A stretch of 64,000 bases of DNA. It comes from Rubripirellula amarantea (lineage in GTDB: Bacteria; Planctomycetota; Planctomycetia; Pirellulales; Pirellulaceae). The position numbers and the translations under genes are program-made. Positions 50,762 to 61,885 of this stretch are shown here, piece after piece (within the stretch, counting starts at the first letter, position 1; each line of letters starts with the position of its first letter). The DNA lies in assembly GCF_007859865.1 (NCBI RefSeq), contig NZ_SJPI01000001.1:1116001-1180000 (forward strand). Reading direction: 5' to 3'. The notes beneath the pieces are model-generated. The model searched no databases, was not told the DNA's origin, and saw only the letters and a program-made list of their open reading frames with translations.

Positions 50762-50793
50762 GAACGATCATGCATTGGAACGATCATGCATTG
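50762..50793 (-). repeat. 16-bp tandem duplication spanning the kdsB stop codon
   Basis: Two perfect copies of GAACGATCATGCATTG at 50762-50777 and 50778-50793. The kdsB TGA (50784-50786) lies in the second copy, so the duplication includes the gene's last codons, and the other copy is left outside the reading frame. Confidence 0.92.
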
Positions 50794-51536
50794 GCGAAGC
50801 GAACGCGAAACGCTTCCAGATCCGTTGACGTGTCGATCCCCGCAGCATTCGATTCTACTCGGGTAACAACAATCCGCTTTCCCGCCTCGATCGCCCGTAG
50901 CTGCTCTAATTTCTCAGTTGTTTCTAACGGGCTAGGCGGCTGTGAACAAAACCAATCCAGGAACTCGCGTCGGTAGGCATACAAGCCGACATGATGCCAA
51001 AATATCGGTGGCTCAGCGTTCAGCAATTCATCGCTCACGCCATCGCGCGCGAACGGCACCGCCGCACGACTGAACGTGACCGCCCGACCGCCGGTGCCCA
51101 TTACGATCTTTACTTGGTTGGGATCTGCTAGTGCATCAGCGTTTCGCAATGGAACTCCCACAGTTGCCATGTCGGCTTGCGAATCAGAAAGTAACAACTG
51201 GGCCACAGCATCAATTGTCGCCGGATCGATCTCGGGTTCATCGCCTTGAACATTCACAAAGACATCGACATCTGGCATTGCGGCAGCCACTTCAGCAATT
51301 CGGTCGGTTCCGCTGGCGCAGCTCTCGCTAGTCATGATCCACTTTCCGCCGAATTGTTCGACTTCGTCGGCAAGCCGTTGGTGATCCACAGCCACGACCA
51401 CACCTTGAGCAACGCGACTTTGGGTTGCTTGCACGTAAGTATGGTGAAGGACTGATTTGCCACCAACTTTCTGCAGCAACTTCTCAGGCAAACGAGATGA
51501 TGCAAGACGCGCGGGAATCACAATCAAAGCAGACAT
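50784..51536 (-). CDS. kdsB: 3-deoxy-manno-octulosonate cytidylyltransferase (CMP-Kdo synthetase)
   Basis: 250 residues from ATG 51536. GGAGAG upstream and the family opening MSALIVIPARLASSRLPEK support this start over a longer frame to 51581. It activates Kdo with CTP for lipid A/LPS core synthesis in the cytoplasm. Visible hallmarks are IPARLASSRLPEK (nucleotide loop), ASGTDRIAEV near residue 78, NVQGDEPEIDP near 97 and IFWHHVGLYAYRREFL near 185. It lies 35 bases after the transporter gene on the same strand. Its presence implies a Gram-negative-type outer membrane with Kdo. Confidence 0.96.
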   Translation of the reverse strand: MSALIVIPARLASSRLPEKLLQKVGGKSVLHHTYVQATQSRVAQGVVVAVDHQRLADEVEQFGGKWIMTSESCASGTDRIAEVAAAMPDVDVFVNVQGDEPEIDPATIDAVAQLLLSDSQADMATVGVPLRNADALADPNQVKIVMGTGGRAVTFSRAAVPFARDGVSDELLNAEPPIFWHHVGLYAYRREFLDWFCSQPPSPLETTEKLEQLRAIEAGKRIVVTRVESNAAGIDTSTDLEAFRVRFANA

Positions 51537-51571
51537 TGTTGTTTCTCTCTCCATATTGCTTTCATCATTCC

Positions 51572-53632
51572 TTACATCCAATGCGAACCTTCTTCTTCGG
51601 GGACCTCGTCAGCATCCAGGAATGCCAAATGATCCTTGTCGAAGAAGCGATCCAGCAAAAACCGAATTGGGACCAATAGAGCAATGAAAACCGGGAACAG
51701 AATCCGCAACGGTTGATAAGGTGCGACATTCACCAGGCAAAGTACCACTAGGCAAACAAACTGAATCATCGTGAAAAGATTGATCGTTCGCGTCGGCACC
51801 CGACGCGTGTAGTGATTGATGGGATACAACTTTGAATCCATCAATAAAAAACCGATGCGTTCGATGAACTGAATGCCACGAAGGGAAACGAATCCCATGA
51901 ACAGGAAAATACCGTAAAGCGTAGCCATGGGAACGTATTCAAGCAGGGGCAACACTAGCAACGTTCCACCGATCAAAACATGGATCGCAATTCCCGTTAC
52001 GCGGTTTTCTGCGACGTGAATGATTTCCTCTCGTCGCTGGCTCTTACTAACGACTTCTTGGAACGTTGACAACGCTCGCACGTGGGCCAGAGACCGCACC
52101 GTTGCCGCCACCATCCAAGGCCAACCAAATAGGCTTGAAAGTCCTATTAGCCCACCGACAACCGCCAAATCCAAATGATAGGCTTCGCCTTTGACAAGCT
52201 TATTCTCGTGGCTGTTGACCAACCTCGCCGTGATATTTTGTGACAAGAACACCAGCACGGTTGCAAGAGCTGCCGGTCCCGCGGCGGCAAACTTGATCCA
52301 AACCGGTACGCTCCAAAGATCAACCACCCACGAACTTCGTGATGCAGCATCTGCTGACCCACTTACCTTTAGTGTTTCAAGCGTGTCGATGCCTCCCAGC
52401 GACCAAGCCACATAGATCATCGCACAAAGAGCAATCGAAGGCCCAAAGTCTGCTAAGAACTCTCGAATCCACGGAAGCAGGTACTTACTGTTGCGAAATC
52501 CCGCCAGAGTCATGGCGATGTAGAACGTGCCGACTGCTAACACCAAAGCTAACAATGCTTTCTCGTGCGAACCGCCCTGCTCCACGTCGCTGGCATGAAA
52601 TTCAACCAACAAAGCTTCAACTGCTTTGTAGATGAAAATTAACGACATCAATGCGGAAAAAATTTCATCGGTAAACCGCGTGAAGTACTTCATCAGGTTG
52701 CTAGCGCCGGTGACCGCCAACAAGACCGTCATCAAGGACGTCCACAATCCCACCCAACCATAGACGCCGAGGAACTGATCGGCGTAGCCCAAGTCCTTGC
52801 AAAGTTGAAACAGAATGATGGTGAAAATCAACAACGGTCCTATCCCGCCCAAAATGATCAGCGGGCTACCGGCGAATAAGGCGTAAAGCAGTCCACAAAC
52901 CGAAGTCGCCAATAACATCTCGGGTGCGCCAATCGCACCGCCTGTTTCAAGCCCCATGAAGCCACCAAACGTGACCGCGGGCGCTAAACAGGCAAAGAAC
53001 ATGAACACGATTGAGGCAACTGACTTTGCTCGAAACCCTGATTTGAAATCATCAATGTAGTGAGGCAAACGACGTCGTATGTCCGCCATCAAGCCGGCGA
53101 AAAGTTTCGGCGGTGCCTGCAGCCCTTCGCTGACTTTGCGAGGTTTCGGCGCGGTGGCCAGAACATTTCGGTTGACGTGCCGTTCCATGGCATCGAGCAC
53201 GTCTTGCTGAGTCTTTGCGTAGGTTGTTTCAAAGTGAAAAACGTTGTCCGACATCAGTCGAGCTATCGTGGACAACGAATCGAGATGCTGAGTCGTTTTC
53301 GATCGATCGCCGATCATCACAAACACGTACCGCGTTGCGATGCCATCGGGTGCGCCCAAATTGACGGCTCGCTTCAATCGAATGAAAACCATAGCCGGAG
53401 CTTCGATGGCATCATCGTAGAAGTGAGGAACCGCGCAGGCGTGACCGATCACGGTAGGAACCGCACGCTCTCGCTCTAGGATGCCGTCAACGACCGGATT
53501 GCGAAGTTTCTCGGTCAGCCGGCCTGTTTGGACGAGGAAGTCAACCGCCTGCGAGATAATTTCACGCATGTCTCCGGCTTCGAGGTTGAGTAAGCAGCTA
53601 CCTTCGGCGATGGATTGAAAGAGAAATTTCAC
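51572..53632 (-). CDS. PTS EIIA-like domain fused to SLC4 (Band 3-type) bicarbonate/anion transporter
   Basis: 686 residues from GTG 53632. Residues 1-155 form a type-2 PTS EIIA-like domain with the phosphorylatable His equivalent at His70 (GHACAVPH) and the family tail HLDSLSTIARLMSDN...DVLDAME. From about 180 to the end is a full SLC4/HCO3_cotransp membrane domain with 12-14 helices. Matches to Band 3 include TFGGFMGLETGGAIG (221-235), GSPLIILGGIGPLLIF (255-270), RFTDEIFSALMSLIFIY (319-335), YHLDL (485-489), PWMVAATVRSLAHVRAL (505-521; Arg513) and YGIFLFMGFVSLRGIQ (573-588). Ser464 occupies a membrane site that is acidic in remembered SLC4 sequences. Likely bicarbonate or other anion transport in the inner membrane; ion unknown. 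Neighbours are kdsB and an epimerase. Confidence 0.93.
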   Translation of the reverse strand: MKFLFQSIAEGSCLLNLEAGDMREIISQAVDFLVQTGRLTEKLRNPVVDGILERERAVPTVIGHACAVPHFYDDAIEAPAMVFIRLKRAVNLGAPDGIATRYVFVMIGDRSKTTQHLDSLSTIARLMSDNVFHFETTYAKTQQDVLDAMERHVNRNVLATAPKPRKVSEGLQAPPKLFAGLMADIRRRLPHYIDDFKSGFRAKSVASIVFMFFACLAPAVTFGGFMGLETGGAIGAPEMLLATSVCGLLYALFAGSPLIILGGIGPLLIFTIILFQLCKDLGYADQFLGVYGWVGLWTSLMTVLLAVTGASNLMKYFTRFTDEIFSALMSLIFIYKAVEALLVEFHASDVEQGGSHEKALLALVLAVGTFYIAMTLAGFRNSKYLLPWIREFLADFGPSIALCAMIYVAWSLGGIDTLETLKVSGSADAASRSSWVVDLWSVPVWIKFAAAGPAALATVLVFLSQNITARLVNSHENKLVKGEAYHLDLAVVGGLIGLSSLFGWPWMVAATVRSLAHVRALSTFQEVVSKSQRREEIIHVAENRVTGIAIHVLIGGTLLVLPLLEYVPMATLYGIFLFMGFVSLRGIQFIERIGFLLMDSKLYPINHYTRRVPTRTINLFTMIQFVCLVVLCLVNVAPYQPLRILFPVFIALLVPIRFLLDRFFDKDHLAFLDADEVPEEEGSHWM

Positions 53633-57568: not shown

Positions 57569-57883
57569 GGTGATTTGGCCAACGAGCTACCAAGGATCAG
57601 AACGCAGAGAGAAAGGTGGCAACGCCGGCAGGTCACCATGAACTCGCTTATCAAAAGCTAGGGCGCGATTGTCTTCAATGAGCCTTGTTGGCAACCCTGT
57701 TCGGTAAAGATTGGGGATCAGAGTGTGAATTTGCGGGTTTTAACCGTTGTAACGGACCTTCCGAGCGAACCTTCGCCTGCTAATCTATGTAGTCACAGGT
57801 GGCCCCATTTGCGGCCGCCGTTGTGAATGCACGTCCACCGGCAGATTCCTCCATTCATCCCCCTTATTGGTTGCCCCGTTAGT
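57569..57883. other. Divergent intergenic region, flp / ABC permease
   Basis: About 315 bases between divergent genes. It must hold both promoters; no clear consensus or hairpin was found. The permease frame can extend back to an ATG at 57827. Confidence 0.4.
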
Positions 57884-59656
57884 ATGCTCGGACCAATCTT
57901 TCTTCGCGAAGCAGCGGTGGTCCCCAAACGCCCCAAAACTTACCTGGGACGTGGCATCTACGTGTTGGCGATGTTCATGCTATTGTGCACTGGCTATCTC
58001 GTGCTCGATGGCTCACGAACCCTTTCCACAAGTTCAGATTCTGCCCGATTTGGCGGCTGGATGTTCACGCTGCTTGCCCCGCTTCAATTGCTGGTCCTAA
58101 CGAGTCTTGCGGCAGTGGGTTCGGCCAGTAGCGTTGCCCAGGAAAAAGACCGCCGAACATTGATCCTGTTGTTGCTCACGCGGTTAACCGGCTTCGAAAT
58201 TGTCGGCGGAAAATTGGCCGCGACGCTCCTTGCGCCACTGGCAATGCTCGCGTGTGGCTTACCCCTGTTTCTTTGCCTGCCGTTCCTTGGTGGCGTGTCA
58301 CCTTCCCAAGTCTTCGGTGTTTTTGCAGTGACAGCCGCATCGATCTTGCTTGCCGGGACGGTGGGAACAGTGGTTGGCATGTGGCGAGAAAAGACGTTCC
58401 AAGCAATTGCGTTAACTGTTTTGTTTCTGTTGATGTACGTTGGCTTGGGGGAACTGATCGTCGACAATATTGCGGGCATGCCCGAAGTCGTTCAGCTTTC
58501 ACTTAGTCCACTGCGAGCGCTTGCCGCAGCGGCATCACCGATGGCCGCTTTGTCGCCAGTCACAGCGGCTGGCATCACTTCGTTTGTGATCGTGACGTTG
58601 GTGGTTTCGATTGCTTTACTAATACTGGGCGTTTTCAAAGTTCGAGTGTGGAACCCATCTCGCGAAGTTCGCTTCAAGGCTCCCGAGCCAGAATCCTCTG
58701 CGGAACTGGAAACCGAACGTGAGGTTGCGAGTTGGAAGGTTCGGGAACCGCGACGGGTTTGGAATAATCCCATCTTGTGGCGAGAGATTAGAACCTGGGC
58801 CTACGGTCGCAAAGTGATCTTCATTCGCGTTGCCTTCGCGTGCCTATTTGCGTTGATTGCCGGAGTCATCTTCACCCAGATCCAAAGTGGTGATGCTCTC
58901 GAACGAGCAGGTCGAATTGGGCGGGCGATTCCATCGGTGACGATTCCCTTGACGGTATTGGGAGTCATCAGTTTGGTGCTTGTGAACGCATTGGCGGTCA
59001 ATGCGGTCACCGGCGAACGAGATGGATTGGCGTTGGACCTACTGTTAGTCACTGACTTAAGTCCGGCGGAGTTCGTTTTTGGGAAGCTCTTGGGCGTGCT
59101 TTATGTAGCCAAAGAAATGATTGTGTTACCACTGTTACTGGTCGTTTATCTTGCAATTTCCGATGTGGTCACAGTCGAGAATGCGTGTTACCTAATCTTG
59201 GGCGGCATGCTGCTGTACTTCTTCGTTGCAATGTTAGGCGTTCATTCGGGGCTAAATCATGTGGCGGGTCGAACAGCGACATTAGCCAGCCTTGGTACAG
59301 TGTTCTTCTTGTGCGTCGGGATTGCGATTTGCATGACGATCATGGTCAGCTTTCGCGGAGCCTTCCAATTGCAACTAGCGCCTTTCCTGGTCATGATCCT
59401 TGGTGGTGGAGCTGCTTTGTTCGCATCACTGGGTTGGCGAAACCCATCGTCAGCGATTTTTCTCGCTTCGTTTAGTTTGCCGCTCGTAACTTTCTACGCC
59501 ATCACGCAGTTTCTATTGCAAACCGATCACTTGTATGTCTTTTTTGCGATTACCGTCGGCTATGTCTTCACCACGGCGGCAATGATGATCCCTGCGTTAA
59601 GCGAGTTCGACGTCTCACTTGAACGCGACCGCGGTGCCGCCGGAGACAGCGCTTAA
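57884..59656 (+). CDS. ABC-2-type transporter permease protein
   Basis: About 590 residues from ATG 57884 (MLGPIFLREA, the usual opening of planctomycete ABC-2 permeases); the frame extends to ATG 57827. About twelve hydrophobic helices arranged as two similar halves of six, each starting with a R-E-containing amphipathic stretch (GPIFLREA; NPILWREIRTWAYGRK near residue 300). The first half contains ALGSASSVAQEKDRRTLILLL-like sequence typical of ABC-2 families (EKDRRTLILLLLTRL near 110); the second has ERDGLALDLLLVTDLSP near 394. Both match the NatB/GldF-type E-x-G/R-T-L-x2-L-L pattern. No ATPase gene is adjacent, so its partner is encoded elsewhere. Substrate unknown. Confidence 0.85.
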   Translation: MLGPIFLREAAVVPKRPKTYLGRGIYVLAMFMLLCTGYLVLDGSRTLSTSSDSARFGGWMFTLLAPLQLLVLTSLAAVGSASSVAQEKDRRTLILLLLTRLTGFEIVGGKLAATLLAPLAMLACGLPLFLCLPFLGGVSPSQVFGVFAVTAASILLAGTVGTVVGMWREKTFQAIALTVLFLLMYVGLGELIVDNIAGMPEVVQLSLSPLRALAAAASPMAALSPVTAAGITSFVIVTLVVSIALLILGVFKVRVWNPSREVRFKAPEPESSAELETEREVASWKVREPRRVWNNPILWREIRTWAYGRKVIFIRVAFACLFALIAGVIFTQIQSGDALERAGRIGRAIPSVTIPLTVLGVISLVLVNALAVNAVTGERDGLALDLLLVTDLSPAEFVFGKLLGVLYVAKEMIVLPLLLVVYLAISDVVTVENACYLILGGMLLYFFVAMLGVHSGLNHVAGRTATLASLGTVFFLCVGIAICMTIMVSFRGAFQLQLAPFLVMILGGGAALFASLGWRNPSSAIFLASFSLPLVTFYAITQFLLQTDHLYVFFAITVGYVFTTAAMMIPALSEFDVSLERDRGAAGDSA

Positions 59657-59672
59657 ACCAGCGTTTGAAGGA

Positions 59673-60947
59673 ATGCTAAGTCTGCTTGCCCAAGCTTGGC
59701 CGTTGATGCTGGCTATGGGTCTGCTTATTTTGCTCAGCGCTTTTTTTAGCGGCAGCGAAGCGGCACTATTTTCGCTCAGCACACGTGACCGCAAGTTGCT
59801 TTCTCGAGGTGGTCTGGGCGGACGTGTAGCCACGGCCCTGCTGGCTAATCCCGAACGATTGCTCTCGGCGATTCTGTTCTGGAATCTGCTGATCAATATG
59901 ACCTACTTTGCAATCGCTGCAATCTTAGGCTCACGGCTTGAAATGGATCCCAACGCGGGCCGTTCCGAAGCAATCGCATTCACCGCAGTTAGCCTGCTGA
60001 CGATCATCTTTTTCAGCGAGATGCTACCGAAGAGTTTTGCTGTATTGGTACCGGTGCGATTGTCAATGTTGATCGCTGTTCCTCTCGACATTGCCGTTCG
60101 CATTGTAGGTCCCGCCATTCCCTTGGTTACCCGAGCCAATGCCGCCGTGTCGCGTTTGATCTGGCCGTCGTTTGCGCCGGAGCCCGACATTGACCTCGCC
60201 GATATTGAGCGAGCAATTGAACTGGGAACCGACGATGCGGCACTCTTGCAACGCGAACGTATGGCGCTACGAAGTCTCGTGCAGATCGCCGAAACTCGCG
60301 TAAGCGAATGGATGCGTCCGCGAAGCAAACTATGGCTCACCGGCGAACCGGTTCAACGCCGTATCGTGCTAGAAGGTGGAATTCAAAACACGTACTTGAT
60401 GGTCCTGGATTCCAATCGAGAAATGATCATCAAGGCCATCGGACTACGAACGCTGCGTCCAAGCCAAATGGATGACATGGGCGAAGCCGCAGAGCCGGTG
60501 ATTTATGTGCCATGGTCAGCGATGGTTTCCCAGGTACTCGACCGACTTAACGAAGACGATCGAACCGTCGCCGTTGTCGTAAACGAGTTTGGCGAATTGA
60601 TGGGGGCGATCACCATCGATGACATCCTCGAACGAGTACTAGCACCTCGCAAACAAGATGAGTTGATCGGCGAAGCTACGATTCAAGAGCTAGGTGACCA
60701 CCGCTACCGCGTATGGGGTCTCGTCAGCATTCGGCAACTCGCCAAGCATCTCGGTGTTGATGTCGACGGAGAAGGCGTCACAACCGTCGCGGGATATATC
60801 GGTCGTCAAAACGAACGGTTCGCGAGACCGGGCGATTCGGCGCTGATGCTGCCCTACACACTTACCGTCACGGAACAATCCGAAGAGAGCGTGTGGATTG
60901 AAGTGCGACGCCATGATGACATCCCGGAAGTGGAGACGACATCGTGA
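59673..60947 (+). CDS. CNNM/CorC-like DUF21 membrane protein with CBS domains
   Basis: About 424 residues from ATG 59673; TTG 59619 and GTG 59634 are alternatives that would overlap the permease gene. A DUF21 domain with four helices starts LSAFFSGSEAALFSLS, the family signature, at the first helix. A CBS pair follows at about 195-325 (ETRVSEWMRPRSKLWLTGE; VVNEFGELMGAITIDDILE), then a C-terminal CorC_HlyC-like domain (LGDHRYRVWGLVSIRQLAKHLG). Members export Mg2+ or Co2+ and are regulated by nucleotides through the CBS pair. Its stop overlaps the start of a second DUF21 gene by 4 bases, so the two are co-translated. Confidence 0.9.
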   Translation: MLSLLAQAWPLMLAMGLLILLSAFFSGSEAALFSLSTRDRKLLSRGGLGGRVATALLANPERLLSAILFWNLLINMTYFAIAAILGSRLEMDPNAGRSEAIAFTAVSLLTIIFFSEMLPKSFAVLVPVRLSMLIAVPLDIAVRIVGPAIPLVTRANAAVSRLIWPSFAPEPDIDLADIERAIELGTDDAALLQRERMALRSLVQIAETRVSEWMRPRSKLWLTGEPVQRRIVLEGGIQNTYLMVLDSNREMIIKAIGLRTLRPSQMDDMGEAAEPVIYVPWSAMVSQVLDRLNEDDRTVAVVVNEFGELMGAITIDDILERVLAPRKQDELIGEATIQELGDHRYRVWGLVSIRQLAKHLGVDVDGEGVTTVAGYIGRQNERFARPGDSALMLPYTLTVTEQSEESVWIEVRRHDDIPEVETTS

Positions 60948-61885
60948 TCACCGCGCTGATTTTATTTGTGATCGGGATGATGCTCAGTGCCTTTTTCAGT
61001 GGCAGTGAGACCGGGATGTATCGTGTGTCGCGAACACGGTTGGTGCTCGATGGGCTCAGTGGATCGCGAGCGGCACAAGGTGTGATTTGGTTGCTCAATC
61101 ACCCGGAAATTTTCGTCGCCACGGCTTTGGTCGGAAACAACCTGGCCAACTATGTCACTTCGTTGTCGATCGTGATGGGGGTTGCGGCGGTCTTTGGCGA
61201 AGAATCCAGTGCTGAACTGCTTGGCACCGTCCTTATGACACCGTTTGTATTCGTGCTTGGCGAATTGCTGCCCAAGTATCTTTTCTATCATGCACCCTAT
61301 TTGCTAATCAATCGAACACGCCCGTTCCTTTTAGCGGCGGCGGTTGTCTTTGCACCCGTCTCGCTGTTGCTAGGTTTATTGGGCCGAGTCTTACAACGGT
61401 TTACCGGTCAAACTCCTTTTCGCCTTCGACTAGCGATGGCGCGAGGAGAATTGGATCAAGTTTTGCGTGATGGACACGAGGCAGGAATCCTAGCAGCGGG
61501 TCAACGATCCCTTGCCCAACAACTCTTTGAAGTGGGAAACCAAAGCGCGGTATCCTTCGGAGTCCCGGCTGATCGATTGGCCACCGTGGATGCACCGATT
61601 GATGTGGATGAAGCGAGACACCAAGCTCGACGACGAAATCATCCTATCGTCTTGGTCCGACGATCACGAAGGATCGTCGGAGCGATATGGTACGCCGATC
61701 TTTGCGTACGAGATCCGGTGATTGAGATCAAGCCGGTGATACGTGGTCGAACCACCGATCGACACCTGCAGATTCTACTGCGGCTATACGATACCGGCAG
61801 TGACGTAGCGGTGCTGTTTGATGAAGCGGGCGAAGTGCGTTGCGTGGTCACGCGAAGACAATTGCTACAACCGTTGATCAAGTAG
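60944..61885 (+). CDS. Second DUF21 membrane protein with degenerate CBS region
   Basis: 313 residues from GTG 60944, overlapping the previous gene by 4 bases. DUF21 signature AFFSGSETGMYRVSRTRL at the first helix, with three further helices to about 150. The C-terminal half aligns loosely with CBS domains (RRRNHPIVLVRRSRRIVGAIWY; DVAVLFDEAGEVRCVVTRRQLL), but is shorter than in its partner, and no CorC_HlyC domain follows. The pair probably forms a hetero-complex, since CNNM proteins are dimers; this is inference. It converges on the next gene, sharing 8 bases. Confidence 0.87.
   Translation: MITALILFVIGMMLSAFFSGSETGMYRVSRTRLVLDGLSGSRAAQGVIWLLNHPEIFVATALVGNNLANYVTSLSIVMGVAAVFGEESSAELLGTVLMTPFVFVLGELLPKYLFYHAPYLLINRTRPFLLAAAVVFAPVSLLLGLLGRVLQRFTGQTPFRLRLAMARGELDQVLRDGHEAGILAAGQRSLAQQLFEVGNQSAVSFGVPADRLATVDAPIDVDEARHQARRRNHPIVLVRRSRRIVGAIWYADLCVRDPVIEIKPVIRGRTTDRHLQILLRLYDTGSDVAVLFDEAGEVRCVVTRRQLLQPLIK

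Follow-up and report, generated by a model that had tools for sequence, protein, structure and literature searches.

Animal SLC4 transporters (AE1/Band 3, AE2, AE3, NBCe1, NBCn1 and NDCBE) carry a cytoplasmic domain ahead of their membrane domain, and the available parts of two earlier papers already describe the fold that EIIA proteins share with the Band 3 cytoplasmic domain (PMC4664831, PMC5608694). The accessible text of the first of these, a 2015 review, presents the SLC4-like proteins of bacteria, fungi and plants as being without the large N-terminal domain and states that no isolated gene homologous to that domain could be identified (PMC4664831). Excerpts of other papers mention an uncharacterised SLC4-like protein of Nitrococcus mobilis (PMC8738779) and list a PTS_EIIA_2 domain for slc4a11 in two fish gene-family studies (PMC7692064, PMC9746111). 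Within the available text of the open PMC literature that was searched, no description of a bacterial EIIA-SLC4 fusion was found; domain databases may list the architecture.

Here, we describe such a fusion from Rubripirellula amarantea, encoded in the 64,000-nucleotide stretch of DNA that was analysed (the window). It has the domain order of animal SLC4 proteins and a membrane domain that matches theirs along its whole length, with 37–40% identity to the five human ones compared; its N-terminus is above the Band_3_cyto cut-off, and it shares with AE-type members the Arg at the position of AE1-730. In contrast to animal SLC4 proteins, it keeps the EIIA pair of His residues, its N-terminus is short and without their insert, and the position of AE1-681 holds Ser. 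With PtsN/EIIA-Ntr and EIIA-Mtl it shares a PTS_EIIA_2 match above cut-off, a best fold match to IIA-Ntr and the active-site His, but it differs from them in being joined to SLC4, in staying below the NCBIfam PtsN cut-offs and in a sequence that resembles the N-termini of animal SLC4 proteins more closely than that of free EIIAs does. EIIA-less bacterial SLC4 proteins and the Bor1 proteins of plants and yeast have the membrane domain in common with it.

Architecture and distribution of the fusion

The gene is a single intact frame on the minus strand, running from 53632 to 51572 (51572..53632), with a GTG start and 686 codons followed by TAA. The stop-to-stop frame is longer by just 3 codons, all before the GTG, so the N-terminus is closely fixed. 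Residues 1–160 (53153..53632, minus strand) form the EIIA-type cytoplasmic domain, as judged from Pfam, predicted fold and PDB sequence matches, and residues 168–677 (51602..53131, minus strand) the SLC4 membrane domain, as judged from HCO3_cotransp, PDB alignments and predicted fold. The presumed phospho-acceptor His70, in the motif GHACAVPH, is encoded at 53423..53425 (minus strand), and the second conserved His of the domain, His116, at 53285..53287 (minus strand); both codons were checked. We take His116 to act as the active-site partner, as in other EIIA proteins. An earlier note, made from the letters alone, had proposed an EIIA-like domain with His70 fused to a complete SLC4 transporter, and the frame and Pfam confirm its coordinates, domain order and histidine. 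In Pfam, PTS_EIIA_2 covers residues 13–150 (77.9 bits, cut-off 27; E = 9.6e-22) and HCO3_cotransp matches in two stretches (540.7 bits, cut-off 27; E = 5.7e-162). Band_3_cyto also matches the N-terminus (58.6 bits, cut-off 34.3; E = 1e-15; best stretch 75–156), a result that was not among the earlier claims.

Searched as a whole against PDB sequences, the protein matches NDCBE (379.7 bits), Band 3 (368.3), Arabidopsis Bor1 (202.2) and yeast Bor1p (145). It reaches 516 bits against the anion exchange protein model TIGR00834, under the NCBIfam cut-off of 599.45, and is therefore not filed as an AE; against the PtsN equivalog TIGR01419 it scores 36.4 bits, under the cut-off of 138.7. Structure prediction agrees with this two-sided kinship. 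The model of residues 1–160 (pLDDT 91.8) resembles IIA-Ntr structures best, with TM up to 0.79, and then, among the best 50 matches, the cytoplasmic domains of AE3/AE2, Band 3 and NDCBE (TMq 0.70–0.78). Profile and predicted fold thus both match EIIA; a failure to do so is what the earlier note had named as fatal to its reading. The full-length model (pLDDT 81.9, pTM 0.70) has full-length human AE2 as its best match, and its membrane part superposes on an AE2 chain with a target-normalised TM of 0.93, which gives it a predicted SLC4 fold.

EIIA-SLC4 is a real, conserved bacterial family of two-domain SLC4 proteins. SLC4 is present in 23 of 40 genomes near R. amarantea (its own included), and each of the 23 long SLC4 frames (681–769 aa, from 22 genomes) encodes the EIIA domain as well, which disposes of the concern that the two domains might be separate genes in close relatives. 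The other SLC4 pieces in these 40 genomes are a 131-aa fragment, the sole SLC4 of its genome (G013), and a weak 105-aa piece (G009). The fusion also occurs in genomes of strains of Roseiconus nitratireducens (L027) and Rhodopirellula baltica (L029) and is hence not an artefact of one assembly. A profile search of genome contigs returned 32 loci, eight of which (L043–L050), from bacteria less closely related, encode SLC4 without an EIIA domain: HCO3_cotransp is found in 8/8, and neither PTS_EIIA_2 nor Band_3_cyto in any of the eight at E ≤ 1. Two of these loci belong to Cyclobacteriaceae (L045) and Chitinophagaceae (L050), the remaining six to planctomycetes. A blast search for a free EIIA next to the SLC4 genes that lack the domain gave one frame per locus, a search that a weak relative could escape. 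In a plasmid search, the 10 matches listed of 12 fall in the EIIA part and cover 16–20% of the query, and no fusion is among them.

For the family set, 73 loci with a long match were reduced to 50 by removing identical C-termini, with the fragments L051, L069, L072 and L087 excluded; 42 of the 50 carry EIIA and 8 do not. The other fused members are 37–78% identical to the R. amarantea protein in the 42-row alignment. PTS_EIIA_2 and HCO3_cotransp, whose joint occurrence the earlier note had proposed as a check, are both found in 42/42, and Band_3_cyto (E ≤ 0.001) in 40/42. Gly63, Pro69 and His116 are invariant (42/42), and His70, the presumed phospho-acceptor in the Pro-His motif, is kept in 41 of the 42 and replaced by Tyr in one (L053, from an Epsilonproteobacteria bacterium). 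Just 6.9% of N-terminal columns are conserved at least as strongly as His70, the median conservation being 0.57. VTVLP, described as the dimerisation motif of the Band 3 cytoplasmic domain in the accessible part of PMC5608694, and ETARW were searched for in the 42 fused proteins and are absent from all of them. Given the absence of VTVLP, the fused N-terminus is a homologous domain and not a member of the animal form.

Beyond the immediate relatives, SLC4 is patchy. HCO3_cotransp matches 18 of 392 genomes in an even draw of the phylum, 14 of them above cut-off (R. amarantea included), and 4 of 290 in the phylum of the Tyr70 protein, where the one above cut-off is that protein's own genome; SLC4 was found in 0/14 control genomes. 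Such a distribution could reflect transfer from eukaryotes, in which a two-domain gene of an early eukaryote entered bacteria and its N-terminus was secondarily made into a PTS-competent EIIA. We regard this as very improbable, given that PTS_EIIA_2 matches every fused row and the His pair is present, and regaining both from an animal-like domain with an insert at that place would be an unlikely path.

The immediate neighbours offer little guidance. Downstream of the fusion lies kdsB (50784-51581, minus strand) and upstream an epimerase-like gene. The kdsB family models begin at residue 14–16 of the listed frame, so the true kdsB start is probably an ATG near 51536 and the listed overlap with the fusion likely not real. 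When window genes were compared by blast with 29 neighbour loci, kdsB appeared at a single locus (L038), where it is on the other strand; among 10 neighbours sampled around further members of the family there was no carbonic anhydrase and no common partner. Operon context was dropped as a functional clue because neighbours are not common across the family. Three consecutive upstream genes on the opposite strand (57827-61885, plus strand) are conserved near the fusion in 14 of the 29 neighbour loci, and in one genome (G057) a Ser/Thr protein kinase frame (L117:424-2280, plus strand) stops just ahead of the EIIA-SLC4 frame.

The N-terminus between PtsN-type EIIA and animal SLC4

Pfam holds both N-terminal families, PTS_EIIA_2 and Band_3_cyto, in one clan. 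The shared fold being already known, what is new here is the sequence bridge within one bacterial protein. A profile built from the fused domains of 37 of the 42 family members finds, among PDB chains, PtsN (2.5e-25), AE2 (2.3e-19), NBCe1 (2.5e-19), NBCn1 (8e-18), NDCBE (4.5e-17), AE3 (1.6e-14) and Band 3 (6.9e-14), with SLC4A11 at just 0.15. When the profile is built instead from free PtsN-like EIIAs, 29 of them from the same and related genomes, there is no SLC4 chain among its 29 PDB matches at E ≤ 1 or its 32 at E ≤ 10. The free set is less diverse than the fused set (mean column identity 82% versus 53%), and the comparison was therefore repeated with single sequences. Residues 1–160 of the R. 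amarantea protein alone have human NBCe1 as their top PDB match (1.1e-11), and 11 of 18 matches are SLC4 chains; for the free EIIA of the same genome, 0/31 PDB matches at E ≤ 10 are SLC4 chains. Ten other EIIA proteins all stay below the Band_3_cyto cut-off (0/10), with two weak matches at 0.0014 and 0.03. Since the fused domain matches NBCe1 best and the free EIIA matches no SLC4 chain, we read the fused domain as standing, in its sequence, between PtsN-type EIIA and the cytoplasmic domain of animal SLC4 proteins. The kinship to the Band 3 cytoplasmic domain, which the earlier note had drawn from structural classification, is thereby borne out by sequence too.

Query stretches 7/8–54/56 and 73/78–156 align colinearly with NDCBE, NBCn1 and NBCe1; the first taken alone scores 6.1–6.9 bits, which is not significant, and AE1 and the AE3/AE2 chimera align over the second only. 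Between the two stretches, in the part that includes His70, the animal chains have a longer unaligned piece of 54 (NDCBE), 219 (NBCn1) and 79 (NBCe1) residues. Position 116 is Tyr in 5/5 animal chains printed, read by eye.

The N-terminus of human SLC4A11 (7x1g, residues 103–394) matches PTS_EIIA_2 (1.2e-4) slightly ahead of Band_3_cyto (5.1e-4), both under cut-off. We considered SLC4A11 as a His-bearing intermediate and rejected it, since the human N-terminal piece is without Pro-His.

Membrane-domain tree and ion site

The earlier note had also called for a phylogeny of SLC4 domains. Our tree of membrane domains takes in 42 bacterial proteins with EIIA, 7 EIIA-less ones, 5 from animals and 2 of the Bor1 type (L047, a near-copy of L046, was dropped); the tree used for AU tests is also without L071, Bor1p and 12 rows of the R. 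amarantea clade. Animals form one group (100/98), as do the EIIA-less bacteria (97/98), and the order of either relative to the EIIA-bearing rows is not settled. Rooted on Bor1, animals stand beside all bacteria (94/89, a node that is not starred), and they do not join the EIIA-bearing bacteria in a group that leaves the EIIA-less ones outside. Without long branches, the EIIA-less clade groups with L053 and L084–L086 (82/93). None of the arrangements put to AU tests is rejected, whether EIIA-bearing rows are kept on one side (p = 0.317), EIIA-bearing rows are joined with animals (p = 0.177) or EIIA-less rows are joined with Bor1 (p = 0.34). We therefore rejected the membrane-domain tree as proof of one origin, given an unsettled base and a very long Bor1-type outgroup. 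Taken alone, the tree would be compatible both with one gain followed by loss and with separate gains.

This bears on the possibility that a PtsN-type EIIA in bacteria and a different EIIA-like domain in animals were fused to SLC4 independently, their likeness reflecting constraint from the same membrane domain. The unsettled base, with the AU results for a one-sided EIIA-bearing group and for EIIA-less rows beside Bor1, leaves room for such separate joins, and these bacteria have joined EIIA to other transporters as well (see below). We nevertheless hold them to be unlikely: the fused domain has a recognisable closeness to the N-termini of animal SLC4 proteins that free EIIAs from these genomes do not show. 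The N-terminal comparisons favour common descent of the two-domain layout.

In the membrane domain, Ser464 (52241..52243, minus strand; codon checked) aligns with AE1 Glu681 and NBCe1 Asp754, and Arg513 (52094..52096, minus strand; codon checked) with AE1 Arg730; the roles of ion-site residues are taken from a table in the accessible part of PMC13263692. The AE1-730 position is Arg in 41/42 EIIA-bearing proteins, His in 7/7 EIIA-less rows and Ile or Leu in NBCe1, NBCn1 and NDCBE. At the AE1-681 position the 42 EIIA-bearing proteins have Ser (22), Asp (15), Thr (2) and Glu, Cys or Leu (1 each), the EIIA-less rows Asp (7/7), and the animal and Bor1-type proteins compared Asp or Glu. Ile264 (52841-52843), Ser464 and Asn635 (51728-51730) go together, in one and the same set of 22 of the 42 rows, all with Ala516 (52085-52087); 14 of the other 20 rows have Thr, Asp, Lys and Asn at these positions. 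This coupled replacement may mark a change of substrate or of the coupling ion. We infer that the R. amarantea clade is probably AE-like and independent of Na+, and that Asp together with Arg would be the earlier state among the fused proteins. Na+ coupling is not claimed for the R. amarantea protein, whose AE1-681 position is without an acidic residue. Because Ser464 stands where animal and Bor1-type proteins have Asp or Glu, this copy, proposed in the earlier note as ancestor-like, may be so in its N-terminus rather than throughout.

Phosphorelay genes and the proposed regulation

The earlier note had seen no EI or HPr in the window; a genome-wide search finds them elsewhere, where a PtsN-like EIIA, HPr and EI lie consecutively as an operon (L098). 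HPr and EI pass NCBIfam cut-offs, and the free EIIA passes that of Pfam and none of NCBIfam. Of the 40 near genomes, 36 have a match for HPr, 39 for the EI N-domain and 40 for PTS_EIIA_2; EIIC, screened as PF02378, occurs in one that is not R. amarantea. With an EIIA-HPr-EI operon and no PF02378 EIIC, a regulatory phosphorelay could act on His70. A third R. amarantea EIIA (L099:1172-1879, minus strand) is fused behind a helix-turn-helix domain, HTH_17.

Among the SLC4-bearing near relatives, EI is found in 22/23 and HPr in 20/23 (missing in G004, G010 and G014). G014 has a fusion with His70 (L035, assigned to this genome from equal frame lengths) and no match for EI, HPr or free EIIA, which is perhaps what would be expected if one operon fell in an assembly gap. 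Elsewhere in the phylum, 12 of 13 further genomes with SLC4 also have EI, two of the 13 (G104 and G186) being counted irrespective of their EIIA state; the miss is G104, which is 84% complete and has its SLC4 split over contigs. For five EIIA-less genomes (L043, L045, L046, L048 and L050), EI is found in the three planctomycetes and not in L045 or L050. The protein with Tyr70 (L053) is encoded by an otherwise intact frame in a genome without an EI match, in a sample where EI matches 7 of the 59 genomes around it (its own included in the 59). That the sole loss of His70 coincides with a genome without detected EI is one case and suggestive only.

These observations bear on whether the EIIA domain might be structural or protein-binding, serving dimerisation or partner docking and no longer phosphorylated, with the His residues kept for fold or binding. 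Animal SLC4 cytoplasmic domains do work without the His pair, with Tyr at 116 in the chains inspected, and the Tyr70 frame is otherwise intact. Yet the columns of His70 and His116 rank with the most conserved of the N-terminus, EI and HPr occur in most genomes that have the gene, and His70 is lost where EI was not detected, so that we give a purely structural role a low probability.

Relatives also fuse EIIA to a SulP-STAS permease (L107:682-2379, minus strand) and to TrkA_N/CBS proteins (L106:21-1283, plus strand; L108:1010-2491, minus strand; L109:5-1714, plus strand), the last of which has in addition a Na_H_Exchanger piece just under cut-off. These fusions provide a local precedent for EIIA as an ion-transporter module, and EIIA looks like a general module of this kind in these bacteria. 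For E. coli, the accessible text of PMC4664831 cites a case in which EIIA controls TrkA, a potassium transporter.

We consider it fairly probable that the R. amarantea protein is an anion transporter with a working EIIA module whose flux is tuned by the phosphorelay, and that the animal layout descended from a fusion of this type; the regulatory mechanism is a likely one. EI would pass phosphate from PEP to HPr, and HPr would phosphorylate His70 with the assistance of His116. The phosphorylation state of His70 would alter the movement of the attached membrane domain, and the flux of anions, probably bicarbonate and chloride, would follow the cell's PEP/pyruvate state. The cytoplasmic domain of animal SLC4 proteins would descend from a fused EIIA of this kind, with the His residues lost where the PTS is absent. 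We judge it evenly balanced whether these proteins are the present-day counterpart of the one that founded the animal SLC4 architecture: in that case, a PTS-controlled SLC4 would have entered a PTS-less lineage, where its EIIA turned into the cytoplasmic domain of Band 3 and the insert of animal proteins took the place of the phospho-His loop.

The family supplies bacterial proteins with the animal SLC4 layout that bridge PtsN-type EIIA and Band 3 with the phospho-acceptor intact, and the origin of the Band 3 cytoplasmic domain becomes testable. The prediction for planctomycetes is that the PTS acts directly on anion transport. The family also connects, in a form that can be tested, a regulatory system of bacteria with the regulatory domain of a family of animal transporters.
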